64,000 bases of DNA from Aureococcus anophagefferens (Eukaryota; Sar; Pelagophyceae; Pelagomonadales; Pelagomonadaceae). Position 1 is the stretch's first letter, and each line of letters begins with the position of its first letter. The notes beneath the pieces are model-generated. The model was not told the origin of the DNA, searched no databases, and saw only the letters and a program-made list of their open reading frames with translations. The stretch is from contig NW_008705570.1 in assembly GCF_000186865.1 (NCBI RefSeq), positions 1,548,280-1,612,279 on the forward strand, given 5' to 3'. Shown piece after piece: positions 6,220-10,878 of the stretch. Position numbers and translations under genes: made by a program.

Positions 6220-7029
6220 TCAGCTTACCGCGACCTCGCGCTCTCCTCCTTTCGACCCATACAGAGCAGGAAGGAAGGATGCGAGGACGCGCATCTCCTC
6301 GGACGCGTGGGTCCACAGCGCCCGGCCGAGCGCTCCCGGAGGTCCGCCGCCGATCGCGCGCGCGGCGACGGAGCGGACCGCCGTCGTGTTCGCGAGCGCG
6401 CGGACGAGGCCGCCGGCGAAGCTGAGAGACGACCCGGCGGAGACGTCGACGTCGAAGAGCCAGAACCGCGACACGAGTCGAAAGCCGCCGCCGTCGCGCG
6501 GCAGCGTGAAATGGATGAAATGCCCCACGTCGAGCCAGCCCAGCACGGCGTCGTGCGTCGCGATGCGCGCCGTCAGCGCGACCTCGCAGCCCGCGGCCGC
6601 CTTCTCCGCCGCGCCGACGCCGTAGGTCGCCGCGGGGACGAACTGGATGCGGTACTTGCTCGCGCCGATTTTTCCGAGCCGCTCGGTGACGCGATGCGTC
6701 TCGCCGACGACGTCCGCCGGCGCCTTGGAAAACCAGCCATCGGTCCAGGTGCCCGCGACGTGGTCGTCGGGATGCCACAGTTTGTACTCATCGTCGCCGC
6801 GGCAGCCCGCGGAGAACCACCACTCGACGCTTCGCGGCGGGCCCGCCGGGAATTCGGCTTCGCTCGCGACGAGCACGCGGTTGTCCCTCGTCTGGCAGAC
6901 GCCGTCGAGGCCGTCGCCGAGCAAGGCGCGCGTCATGTCTCCCACGTCGTAGTAGGCGTCGGCCGGCAGCTTCGGCGGCGCCGGCAGCGTCGCGCGCGCG
7001 TGCGCCAGCGCGGCCCGCGACGCCTCCAT
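6220..7029 (-). CDS. DAPG hydrolase (PhlG)-like protein, 269 aa
   Basis: The protein has WWFSAGCRGDDEYKLWHPDDH in the middle and VGHFIHFTLPRDGGGFRLVSRFW later. Both match the pattern I associate with the 2,4-diacetylphloroglucinol hydrolase fold, where a His and acidic residues bind Zn2+ to cleave a C-C bond in acylated phenolics. Known members are mostly bacterial and fungal. There is no signal peptide, so a cytosolic location is likely. The ATG at 7029 is the first in frame with good codon bias. The substrate here is unknown. Confidence 0.6.
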   Translation of the reverse strand: MEASRAALAHARATLPAPPKLPADAYYDVGDMTRALLGDGLDGVCQTRDNRVLVASEAEFPAGPPRSVEWWFSAGCRGDDEYKLWHPDDHVAGTWTDGWFSKAPADVVGETHRVTERLGKIGASKYRIQFVPAATYGVGAAEKAAAGCEVALTARIATHDAVLGWLDVGHFIHFTLPRDGGGFRLVSRFWLFDVDVSAGSSLSFAGGLVRALANTTAVRSVAARAIGGGPPGALGRALWTHASEEMRVLASFLPALYGSKGGEREVAVS

Positions 7030-7215
7030 TGCCAGCGGCTAATTCGGTAGTTCTGCTTTTCTGTCTTTAGCAGCTGACCACAACGCTCAAGAGGCGGCTC
7101 GCAAGCGGCGGCACGGCTCTCGACTCTCCCAAAATCGTGCTTTCACCCTGTGGCAGCTCGGGAACTGAGGTCGTCATTGAGGTCGACCGGGTCAGCCGTC
7201 GGCGCGGAGCCTGCT

Positions 7216-7284
7216 GGGGCTGCCTGTCTGCGAGGGCGGCGCCGTCGTCGGCGGCGGGCTGGGCTGCCTGTCTGCGAGGCGGCG
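7216..7284 (+). repeat. Direct repeat just upstream of the CHAT gene start
   Basis: The block GGGCTGCCTGTCTGCGAGG at 7216 recurs at 7261, in both cases followed by GCGGCG after zero or one extra G, with about 45 bp between copies. It lies in the putative leader of the gene starting at 7292. Confidence 0.6.
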
Positions 7285-7291
7285 TCCCGCG

Positions 7292-9532
7292 ATGAAGGAG
7301 GCGCTGGAGCTGCTCGTGTCCGGCGGCAGCCAGGAGGCGCTGGAGCCCTGCGTCGCCGCCGGCGTCGTCGGCGGCGCGCCGGCGGCGGCGCGCGGCACGG
7401 CGCCGGCGCCCTCCGTCGCCTACGCGACGCCGGTCGTCGACGTGCGCCTCGCCTACGTCTTCGCGACGCCCTTCGTCTACGGGCGCCGCGACGGCACGAC
7501 GAGCGCCGTGCCGTCCATCGACGCGGCGCAGGAGCTCGTGCTCGTGCGGTCCGCGCTGCGGTCCGCCGGGCGACGGGTACGATTCGTGGCCGAGGTCGCG
7601 ACCGCGCAGCGGATCCGGCGCTTGATGACCCTGGGCTGCGACCTCCTCCACTATTCGGGCCACGGCGTCTCGGAGGGGCTCGCGCTGGAGGCGGACCGCG
7701 GCGCGGACGTCCACGTCGTCTCGCGCGACGCGCTCTGCGCGCTCATCGGCGCGGGCGGCGAGGTCCGGACGCGGTTGGTTTTTGTCTCGGCCTGCCACAG
7801 CGAGCCCGCGGGCCGCGCCTTCGTGCGCGCGGGCGTGCGGCACGTCGTCTGCGTCAAGCGCGACGCCAAGGTCTCGGACGCGTCGTCGCGGACGTTCGCG
7901 CGGCAATTTTATCTGGCGCTCCTCGTGGGCAAGACCGTGCGCCAGGCCTTCGACATCGGCGCGCGGTCCGCGTCCGTGGAGCAGGGCAGCAGCACGGGCG
8001 CGACGGCGGCGTCGGCGACGGACGGGTCGACGAAATTTCTCCTGTTGCCGGAGACCGGCGACCACGGCGTGCCGTTGGTGGCCACGGGCGTGCCCGAGGG
8101 CGACTTTGTGGACGAGACGCGGCCGCCCGCGCCCAACGGCGCGCCGACGGCGCCGAAGCCCTTCGTGGGCCGCGCGCGCGAGCTCGCGGAGACCGCGCGC
8201 TACCTCAGCGCCGGCGCGCGGTGCGTCTCCGTCGTCGGCCCGCCGGGCATCGGGAAATCCGCGCTCGCGTCGAAGATCGCGGAGTACGTCGCGCTGCGCC
8301 GGACCTACGGCGCCGTCGCCGTCGCCGCCGTCGACGACGCCGGCGACCCGCGCGACGCGCTCGTCGACGCGTGCCGCCGCGTCGCGCCGCGGAAGGACGT
8401 CGCCGCGGCGGCGTCCGACGACGTCTTCGGCGCGCTCGCGGCGGCCGCGGGCGGCGACGCGCCGCTCCTCGTCATCGTGGACTTTTCCGGCACGCAACCG
8501 AGCGGCCTCGTGCGGGCGCTCTCGAAGATTTTGCTGCGGACGCGCGCGCTCGCGTTCTTGGTTTTAGCGGAGCGGCCCCTGCACGCGTCGACGCCGGAGC
8601 GGCTCGAGAACGAGGCGGAGAAGGTCGTCGAGCTCGGCGCGCTGGACCGGCGGAGCGCGGCGCTGCTCCTGGTCCAGCTCGCGCCGCGGCGCCTGCTGCG
8701 CCACGAGACGGGCGGGCCGGACGGCGGCATCGAAGGCCTCGCGAACCACGCGGTCGTGGGCGCGCTGCGGGGCAGGCCCCGGGCCATCGCGCGCTTCGCC
8801 CCGAAGCTCCAGCACCTCTTCCTCGATCGCAACGGGCCCGAGCTGCTGCGCGCCGCGCAGGACGCGGCCGCGGACGCCGTCGTCGAGGCCGCGCCGCCGC
8901 CGCCGGCGCCGGCGAGCCCGGCGTTCTCCTACGACTCCGCGGAGGAGATCGTCACGCGGGCCCTCGACGCCGACTTCCGCGACGCGGTGCCCGGGCGGCG
9001 CTTGTCCGGCGACGACGCGGCCTTTTTGATGGCTCTGCGGCGGGACAAGGGCGAGCCGCTGTTTCGGTCGTGGTGGAAGGCGTGCCTCGAATTGATCCGC
9101 GCGACGCGGCGCGAGTGGGCCGCGCGGAGGCCCGTACTCGTCCAGGGCTTCGTGTCCCGCGCGGCGGCGCAGAAGCTGCTCCTCGGCGCCGGCGCGGCGC
9201 GGGGCGACTTCCTGCTCCGGGTCTCGGAGTCGCGCGACGGGCGCCTCGTGGCGTCGTTCGTCGGCGACGGGCGGGCCGTGAACCACTGCCTGATCAGCTC
9301 GGACAAGGGCAAGGTCTCCATCGCCATCGGCACGCGCAAGAACGAGGTCTCCCACTACGACTCGCTCCGCAAGCTCGTCGTGGATTCGAGGAACCTGCTG
9401 AGGCTCTGCCCCGGGCGCGCGGACAAGAAGGACGCGTTCGCGCAGCTCGCCGAGGCCGGCGGCGCGGACCCGGCGGCGACGACGGCCATGCTCCTCCTCG
9501 ACCTCGGCGGCGGCGCGCCGCCGCCGCCGTAG
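7292..9532 (+). CDS. CHAT protease - NB-ARC/STAND NTPase - STAT-type linker/SH2 protein, 746 aa
   Basis: Three modules occur in one exon. (1) Residues 50-255 are a CHAT (caspase-like) peptidase: HYSGHG gives His124 and FVSACHS gives Cys168, the catalytic dyad. (2) Residues 288-510 are a STAND/NB-ARC NTPase: FVGR (291), Walker A GPPGIGKS (316-323), Walker B LLVIVDF (Asp397), and GRPRAIA at 494 in the GLPLA position. (3) Residues 590-715 resemble the STAT linker plus SH2: SWWKACLELI, GFVSRAAAQKLLL, then FLLRVSES with Arg643 as the phosphotyrosine-binding Arg, and LCPGRADKKDAF matching the end of STAT SH2 domains. There is no membrane span and no repeat sensor domain. By analogy with NLRs it may be an inducible protease under nucleotide and phosphotyrosine control; this is inference. 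Confidence 0.85.
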   Translation: MKEALELLVSGGSQEALEPCVAAGVVGGAPAAARGTAPAPSVAYATPVVDVRLAYVFATPFVYGRRDGTTSAVPSIDAAQELVLVRSALRSAGRRVRFVAEVATAQRIRRLMTLGCDLLHYSGHGVSEGLALEADRGADVHVVSRDALCALIGAGGEVRTRLVFVSACHSEPAGRAFVRAGVRHVVCVKRDAKVSDASSRTFARQFYLALLVGKTVRQAFDIGARSASVEQGSSTGATAASATDGSTKFLLLPETGDHGVPLVATGVPEGDFVDETRPPAPNGAPTAPKPFVGRARELAETARYLSAGARCVSVVGPPGIGKSALASKIAEYVALRRTYGAVAVAAVDDAGDPRDALVDACRRVAPRKDVAAAASDDVFGALAAAAGGDAPLLVIVDFSGTQPSGLVRALSKILLRTRALAFLVLAERPLHASTPERLENEAEKVVELGALDRRSAALLLVQLAPRRLLRHETGGPDGGIEGLANHAVVGALRGRPRAIARFAPKLQHLFLDRNGPELLRAAQDAAADAVVEAAPPPPAPASPAFSYDSAEEIVTRALDADFRDAVPGRRLSGDDAAFLMALRRDKGEPLFRSWWKACLELIRATRREWAARRPVLVQGFVSRAAAQKLLLGAGAARGDFLLRVSESRDGRLVASFVGDGRAVNHCLISSDKGKVSIAIGTRKNEVSHYDSLRKLVVDSRNLLRLCPGRADKKDAFAQLAEAGGADPAATTAMLLLDLGGGAPPPP

Positions 9533-9678
9533 CCGTAGCCTAAGTGCATTCTTCATGTTGCAGTGCTTGTCACAAGTTGCAGCGGAAAAAATACCGCGCC
9601 AGCATCTGAGCATATGGGCCTTCCATAATTGCTGGCGCGGTCGAAAAGACGAGGCGCGGGAGCGGCCGCCGGCGCGGC

Positions 9679-10878
9679 ATGCGCCGCGCGCGCGACGGGG
9701 AGGACGTGGCGAAGCGCCGGCGCTGCTGCGCCTGGCTCTCCGACGTCTTCCGAGGATGCTGCCGGCGCGGTCCGGCGGCGGCGGCGGAGCCGTCGGACGA
9801 CGGCGACGTCGAGCTCGGCGGCGGCTCGTCGCTGCTCGTCGCGGAGCGAGTGCGCATGATCCAGCAACTGGCCGCGCCGCCGCCGCCGCCGCCGGAAGCG
9901 CCGACGCCCGGCCGCGAGCGCTGCCCGTCCATCGCCGAGCGGCGCGCCATGCTCGAGAAAAAGACCACGCCGCCGCCGCCGCCGGAGCGCACCCGGTCGG
10001 CGTCGGCCGAGAAGCTCCGCGCGATGCGGTCCGCGCGCGCGGCCCCGCGCTGCGGCTTCTGCGGCCTCGACGTCTTCGCCGCGGAGGCGCAGCGGTCGCG
10101 CGGCGAGGTCTACCACGCGGCGTGCTTCCGCTGCGGCGCCTGCGGGAAGGCGTTGGCGGGCGTCCAGTGGGGCGCGCGCGCCGACGACGACTTGATGTAC
10201 TGCGACGACCTGCGACTCGGCTCGTGCCTCCAAAAATTGAAAACGCGCGACCTCGACCACGAACGGGAGGCGGCGAACCAGCGGCTCAGCGCGTCCGACG
10301 CGCGCGCGACGGCGAGTGCGAAGCTCAGGGCCGTCGAGGTCATCGGCGACGAGCTCGAGCAGCTCGTGTCGAAGCTCGTGCCCAGGTGCGCGCTGTGCGG
10401 GGGCACGTTCGGCGCCTCGGATCGCATGGTCATGCAGGGGATGACCAAGATCCACGAGGCATGCATGCGCGGCGCGGCCCCGGCCGCGGGCGCGGGCGCG
10501 AGCCTGACGCCCAAGGTGGCGCTGAAAGACGCGCCCGACTCGCTCCTCGTGAAACTCTCGGCGGGCAAGGTCGTCACGTTCTTCCTCGCCAAGGTCGACG
10601 ACGCGGATGAGGAGACTGTGCGATACATCCCGGACCCGCAAAGCCGGGCGCCGCACCGGCGCCGGGTGGCTTCCGCCATCGGCGCGGGCGCGCGGTGCCT
10701 CTCGAACTCGGGGCGCGACGTGGCGCCGGCCACCACCGTGACCGACGGGTTGCTCGCGCCCTTCCGCTGGACGAGCGCGGGCCTCGACTGGTCCCTCGAC
10801 GTCGAGTTCCAACTCGACGGCGAGACGCTCGCCCTCGGCGGCGCCGCGCTCCGCGTCCGATCGACCGCGCTCGTATAA
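9679..10878 (+). CDS. LIM zinc-finger protein, 399 aa
   Basis: A complete first LIM zinc knuckle is visible at about residues 116-145: CGFCGLDVFAAEAQRSRGEVYHAACFRCGAC (C-x2-C...H-x2-C-x2-C-x2-C spacing). A second, partial one is CALCGGTFGASDRMVMQGMTKIHEAC near residue 237. The N-terminus has Pro runs and basic RS-type segments. The C-terminal third (LKDAPDSLLVKLSAGKVVTFF onwards) is unrecognised. LIM domains mediate protein contacts, often with the cytoskeleton. The gene ends 5 bp before the stop of the convergent gene at 10884. Confidence 0.75.
   Translation: MRRARDGEDVAKRRRCCAWLSDVFRGCCRRGPAAAAEPSDDGDVELGGGSSLLVAERVRMIQQLAAPPPPPPEAPTPGRERCPSIAERRAMLEKKTTPPPPPERTRSASAEKLRAMRSARAAPRCGFCGLDVFAAEAQRSRGEVYHAACFRCGACGKALAGVQWGARADDDLMYCDDLRLGSCLQKLKTRDLDHEREAANQRLSASDARATASAKLRAVEVIGDELEQLVSKLVPRCALCGGTFGASDRMVMQGMTKIHEACMRGAAPAAGAGASLTPKVALKDAPDSLLVKLSAGKVVTFFLAKVDDADEETVRYIPDPQSRAPHRRRVASAIGAGARCLSNSGRDVAPATTVTDGLLAPFRWTSAGLDWSLDVEFQLDGETLALGGAALRVRSTALV

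Follow-up and report, generated by a model that had tools for sequence, protein, structure and literature searches.

A predicted CHAT-NTPase-linker-SH2 protein of Aureococcus anophagefferens as a candidate receptor-protease

Are a caspase-like protease, an NTPase and an SH2 domain joined in one protein of the pelagophyte Aureococcus anophagefferens, and what would such a protein do? The question is raised by a frame in the window (the whole 64,000-nucleotide stretch of contig NW_008705570.1 analysed here), in which an earlier note, made from the letters alone, had read a CHAT protease, an NB-ARC/STAND NTPase and a STAT-type SH2. The product is called P0001 below.

The reading frame and its modules

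7292..9532, + strand: CHAT - NTPase - STAT-like linker - SH2 frame, 746 aa, predicted single exon
7430..8098, + strand: CHAT caspase-like peptidase domain, residues 47-269 by structure match (Pfam stretch 72-219)
7661..7663, + strand: His124, predicted catalytic His (HYSGHG), by motif
7793..7795, + strand: Cys168, predicted nucleophile (SACHS), by motif
8144..8911, + strand: STAND-like NTPase, residues 285-540, comprising the nucleotide-binding and first helical domains
8237..8260, + strand: Walker A GPPGIGKS, residues 316-323, by motif
8480..8482, + strand: Walker B Asp397 (VIVDFS 394-399), by motif
8936..9127, + strand: STAT-like helical linker domain, residues 549-612, by model helices and family profile
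9146..9457, + strand: SH2 domain, residues 619-722, by profile and fold matches (PF00017 stretch 619-682)
9158..9160, + strand: Arg623 of the phosphate pocket, identical in 9/9 linker-SH2 proteins
9218..9220, + strand: Arg643 (FLLRVSES) of the phosphate pocket, identical in 9/9
9224..9226, + strand: Ser645 of the phosphate pocket, identical in 9/9

Open-frame length is weak evidence at this locus, since long frames come cheaply at the G+C content of the region (72-75%) and a competing 797-aa frame (7150-9543) overlaps that of P0001 in another phase. The P0001 frame, 746 stop-free codons of the + strand from the ATG at 7292 to the TAG at 9530-9532, was therefore tested by other means. Across the seven 300-base blocks between 7292 and 9391 third-position G+C stays at 0.94-0.98; it drops to 0.76 in the block containing the stop. 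Three Pfam domains, CHAT (72-219), AAA_16 (290-424) and SH2 (619-682), exceed their cut-offs in this order, and homologues have the same order of modules. These three lines of evidence fix the frame and bear out the single 746-aa reading of the earlier note; from the DNA we conclude that P0001 is the predicted product of one continuous coding exon. All motif positions that the note had given were correct, those of the CHAT and NTPase modules (HYSGHG 120-125, SACHS 166-170, GPPGIGKS 316-323, VIVDFS 394-399) as well as those of the C-terminal region (WWKACLELI 594-602, FLLRVSES 640-647, LCPGRADKK 705-713). Of the neighbouring genes, the one at 6220-7029 (- strand) encodes a DAPG-hydrolase-like protein (88.2 bits vs. 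22.7), the one at 9679-10878 (+ strand) a LIM-domain protein (32.4 bits vs. 22.9); a functional link to P0001 is not evident for either.

The proposed CHAT domain with a His124/Cys168 dyad was recovered in full: PF12770 scores 47.7 bits against a cut-off of 24, the predicted structure has a caspase-like fold with fold matches to SAVED-CHAT (PDB 8tl0), and both residues are present. For the NTPase the outcome was divided. Walker A and B are in place, AAA_16 scores 38.2 bits (cut-off 32.6), and the predicted fold is NB-ARC-like, matching the NTPases of NRC, CED-4 and APAF-1. NB-ARC as a Pfam label was rejected at 16.1 bits (cut-off 23.5), and nSTAND1 (18.4 vs. 27.1) and NACHT (14.6 vs. 26.7) also lie below their cut-offs. 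The definition of STAND/NB-ARC proteins includes a winged-helix domain that follows the first helical one; none was recognised by fold matches between the P0001 NTPase and the linker. Among the NTPase fold matches listed, 39 of 45 end at residues 527-545, and the remaining six reach 580-597, inside the linker helices. Residues 533-548 of the model have pLDDT below 50. Directly before the SH2 (PF00017, 36.2 bits vs. 21) the model places the three linker helices at 549-565, 573-586 and 588-612.

Recurrence among homologues

A search with P0001 yielded 21 proteins and a family profile 128, the best 120 of which are listed, with about 8,000 candidates scored in each case. A linker-SH2 profile matched nine of 122 homologous proteins (P0001, P0004, P0005, P0008, P0010, P0011, P0013, P0016 and P0023), all with the same module order. 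The earlier note had proposed a search for the same architecture in other pelagophytes; by this profile the order recurs in eight other proteins. Seven of the nine were used to build the profile, which leaves P0016 and P0023 as the independent finds. The Pfam SH2 model exceeds its cut-off in six of the nine; P0016 (14.4 bits) and P0023 (15.5 bits) stay below the value of 21, and no Pfam SH2 match was found in P0013 at E 0.01. A linker-SH2 search starting from the P0008 region found only P0008 and P0010 among 287 candidates.

Of the 30 rows prepared, 26 are in the tree, as the motif anchors skipped P0012, P0018, P0019 and one paralogue; the tree also leaves out P0022, P0026 onwards and the CHAT locus on C5. 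The SH2 carriers do not form one clade in it. They fall into four groups (P0011/P0013 with P0016/P0023; P0008/P0010; P0004/P0005; P0001), interrupted by P0002, P0003, P0007, P0009 and the paralogue C6:2312991, and the SH2 label requires four changes. No SH2 was found in the two nearest homologues: P0002 has 69% identity over 64%, and P0003 53% over 67%. Their source contigs of 3.7 and 2.5 kb may have cut the proteins short. P0002, P0003, P0007 and P0009 are 500-630 aa long; P0002 continues into low-complexity sequence and the other three stop at or near the NTPase, so that loss of the SH2 and truncation are indistinguishable.

Elsewhere in the family, P0012 carries a partial protein kinase domain after the CHAT-NTPase core (PF07714, 39.3 bits vs. 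23.1), a possible writer of phosphorylation joined to the core that P0001 also has. P0024 has LRR-like sequence ahead of the core (LRR_1, 23.5 bits vs. 20.6) in one protein with CHAT and NTPase. In the Aureococcus genome CHAT exceeds its cut-off at five loci. The linker-SH2 profile was not found at the closest paralogue (C6:2312991) in six frames of 8.9 kb. At another locus (C3:2609866-2613771) a CHAT-NTPase frame (1474-2949) follows a frame that looks LRR-like by eye, both in the same phase with a stop between them and part of the stretch given as N. A CHAT-nSTAND1 paralogue (C6:863652-867500; 46.0 and 34.2 bits) ends in what appears by eye to be a hydrophobic C-terminal stretch, like P0017 and P0018.

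A scan of prokaryotic genomes gave seven relatives among 175 pattern matches, of which three were annotated: the best-scoring, L023:4698-7838 from Anaerolineae, is EAD7-CHAT-STAND-TPR, L024 from Theionarchaea has the order CHAT-STAND-TPR, and L025 consists of a CHAT-NTPase frame of 472 aa. A viral origin was also considered; the scan of viral contigs returned 17 pattern matches and zero relatives.

A possible receptor-protease and the alternatives

We read P0001 as an NLR-like receptor-protease whose SH2 senses a phosphotyrosine ligand and whose CHAT domain is the output, at a probability of about 0.5. The C-terminal linker-SH2 would act as sensor in place of the prokaryotic TPRs, the central STAND-like NTPase as switch, and the N-terminal CHAT as caspase-like cysteine protease output. 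On this view the NTPase would be released once the SH2 has bound a tyrosine-phosphorylated partner, and its oligomerisation would bring CHAT domains together for cleavage of a substrate, possibly killing or reprogramming the cell. The roles of sensor and output are assigned from position and conservation. Established from the sequences are the architecture in one frame, the intact dyad, Walker A, the conserved phosphate pocket and the recurring order, whereas ligand, oligomerisation, proteolysis and outcome are inferred. In characterised STAND systems the sensor usually lies at the C-terminus and the effector at the N-terminus, as parts of PMC10907252 describe. Two of the three annotated prokaryotic relatives have TPRs where P0001 has its SH2, which puts the SH2 in the usual sensor position. 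The kept phosphate pocket points to a phosphorylated ligand, most simply phosphotyrosine, and the architecture as a whole suggests a phosphorylation-triggered protease. Counted against this reading were the SH2-less closest homologues and paralogue, one lineage that lost the dyad, the apparent scarcity of tyrosine kinases and phosphatases, and the lack of a recognised winged helix.

Rather doubtful, in our view, is a role of the SH2 as an adaptor or address label that docks the CHAT-NTPase, with activation coming from elsewhere and the protein being no more than a scaffold in some lineages. The near-copies P0004 and P0005 fit such a role, having a pseudo-CHAT (HYTGIG, SARHS) with retained NTPase and SH2, so that protease activity is not always required; SH2 domains and kinases also occur among the variable C-termini of Amphimedon Death-TRADD-N proteins (PMC8195603, in part). 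Against it, the dyad is complete in six of the eight linker-SH2 proteins where both residues can be judged, and the linker-SH2 occupies the STAND sensor position (PMC10907252, in part). Site by site, the His124 equivalent lies in HYSGHG or HYTGHG in six of the nine (Ile in P0004/P0005, region uncovered in P0016), the Cys168 equivalent is Cys in seven (Arg in P0004/P0005), and Walker A (G..G.G[KT][ST]) is present in all nine.

In P0023 (approximately residues 95-479) and in the N-terminal part of P0016 an intein-like insert splits the CHAT domain just past the catalytic His motif, the boundaries in P0023 being HYTGHGMPS, insert, CLAFED. By eye the insert resembles Hint/intein sequences, with a Cys at its start and DHPDHLIVAQR near its end; no Hint or intein match was found in Pfam or NCBIfam, and the best PDB sequence match (E 0.95) is not meaningful. 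If the insert splices, assembly of the protease would depend on splicing.

It is unlikely that the SH2 fold reads phosphoserine/threonine or an unmodified peptide rather than phosphotyrosine, a mode of reading for which SPT6 is a precedent. Arg623, Arg643 and Ser645, which we take to be the alpha-A Arg, the beta-B Arg and a further residue of the phosphate pocket, are identical in all nine divergent proteins, as expected for a kept pocket. His665, the His of beta-D, is retained in five of nine only, and few tyrosine kinases or PTPs could be recognised in the genome; both would fit a ligand other than phosphotyrosine. Dual-specificity or TKL kinases could write phosphotyrosine, however, and PK_Tyr_Ser-Thr gave at least 145 matches, in which tyrosine kinases are not separated from others. 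The pattern HRDL[ARGP]A[ARGP]N matched once, in a kinase frame at C2:1662602 with HRDLAARN and GTRWMAPE, a count at chance level by itself, as the reversed control pattern matched twice. For PTP there was a single match, a short one (26.1 bits vs. 20.9). Judged from the genome sequence, unambiguous tyrosine kinases and phosphatases seem to be few.

The likeness to STATs is strong only at the level of the family profile. This linker-SH2 profile matches STAT at E 1.3e-17, with 18 STAT sequences ahead of any other SH2, and STAT fold matches of the linker-SH2 begin at residue 1, 7 or 8 of the model (residue 1 being P0001 541). Taken alone, the P0001 SH2 matches those of ZAP-70, ABL and SYK best (best of each, E 0.001-0.011) and STATs weakly (best E 0.037). 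STAT-type SH2s reportedly have no beta-E and beta-F and a split alpha-B, according to parts of PMC12470777. The P0001 model has strands after beta-D at 674-680 and 686-689 (block pLDDT 60-68), contrary to that definition, and short helices at 692-697 and 699-705 (pLDDT 57-68 in the 671-710 block), in line with a split alpha-B. Of the STAT-type SH2 claimed earlier, the relationship of linker plus SH2 to STATs stands; for the type in the strict sense, the strands of the model speak against it and the two short helices for it.

It is very unlikely that P0001 is a STAT derivative acting in transcription or dimerisation, with the CHAT-NTPase as a regulatory part. The family-profile matches do continue through the STAT linker and SH2 into the region beyond, and P0001 shares linker and SH2 with STATs (Dictyostelium STATa 1uur, STAT2, STAT5, STAT6). 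Unlike these it has no Pfam match to the STAT coiled-coil or DNA-binding domain (E up to 10), its modelled strands after beta-D are additional, and its last Tyr, Y689, lies within the SH2, so that a STAT-like tail tyrosine is absent. That separate genes were fused in the assembly or its annotation is extremely improbable: the predicted gene is one frame with even third-position G+C, and the identical order stands in eight other proteins, among them P0010, a EukProt gene model.

To return to the receptor-protease, P0001 may hold the only classical SH2 reader of A. anophagefferens, in which case SH2-phosphotyrosine recognition would serve there mainly to switch a protease, perhaps one that acts in cell death. 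No PF00017 match beyond the window gene was found in the genome (2 candidates scored; introns could hide more), a search of uncalibrated sensitivity, since 14 control genomes gave no PF00017 match either. The linker-SH2 query likewise found the window gene only. SH2_2, presumably the SPT6 family, was found with its own model (142.9 bits), which does not calibrate the PF00017 search. Gasdermin models had no match in the genome and none in the control genomes, so nothing follows from that negative. More tentatively, P0001 could represent an old protist receptor class, a phosphotyrosine-gated NLR in which the SH2 senses a phosphorylated protein, for example a self protein that becomes modified in the course of infection or stress, and turns on the protease of its own chain.

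Comparison with known systems

CHAT-NTPase receptors and STAT-like linker-SH2 modules are known separately; of their union in one protein we found no report. This agrees with the earlier note, which knew of no described example: in the open-access literature, with most subscription papers outside, no report of an SH2 joined with a CHAT domain was found. For a STAND NTPase with an SH2 the same literature gave only PMC8195603, on sponge Death-TRADD-N proteins, and no report on CHAT receptors of algae was found among the matches listed. PADLOC matches to P0001 are weak (mad8 17.1 bits, SAVED_CHAT 14.9), and we therefore claim no known defence system for it. The modules of P0001 are compact and its gene is a single open frame, which makes the hypotheses directly testable.

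The CHAT-NTPase core of P0001 is homologous to those of L023 and L024, with best segments 36% and 28% identical; these differ in having TPRs at the C-terminus and, in L023, an N-terminal EAD7. The SAVED-CHAT protease (PDB 8tl0, named from its PDB title) differs from P0001 in having SAVED and neither a STAND NTPase nor an SH2. Amphimedon Death-TRADD-N proteins, whose variable C-termini include SH2 domains and kinases, resemble P0001 in that the SH2 is the C-terminal module of a predicted apoptosis/immunity protein; a CHAT-STAND core is not mentioned for them in section 10 of PMC8195603.

Fungal NLRs with CHAT proteases also combine the protease and an NLR-type NTPase in one chain, and some lie close to gasdermin genes; the modules named for them in the relevant parts of PMC10197012 are ANK, TPR and WD40 repeats, not SH2. 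They are described there as contracted pathways, with the caspase within the receptor. Should the SH2 of P0001 prove to be the sensor, a caspase-like protease would be tied to phosphotyrosine signalling within one molecule and without adaptors, which would bear on the origin of death receptors and of SH2 signalling.
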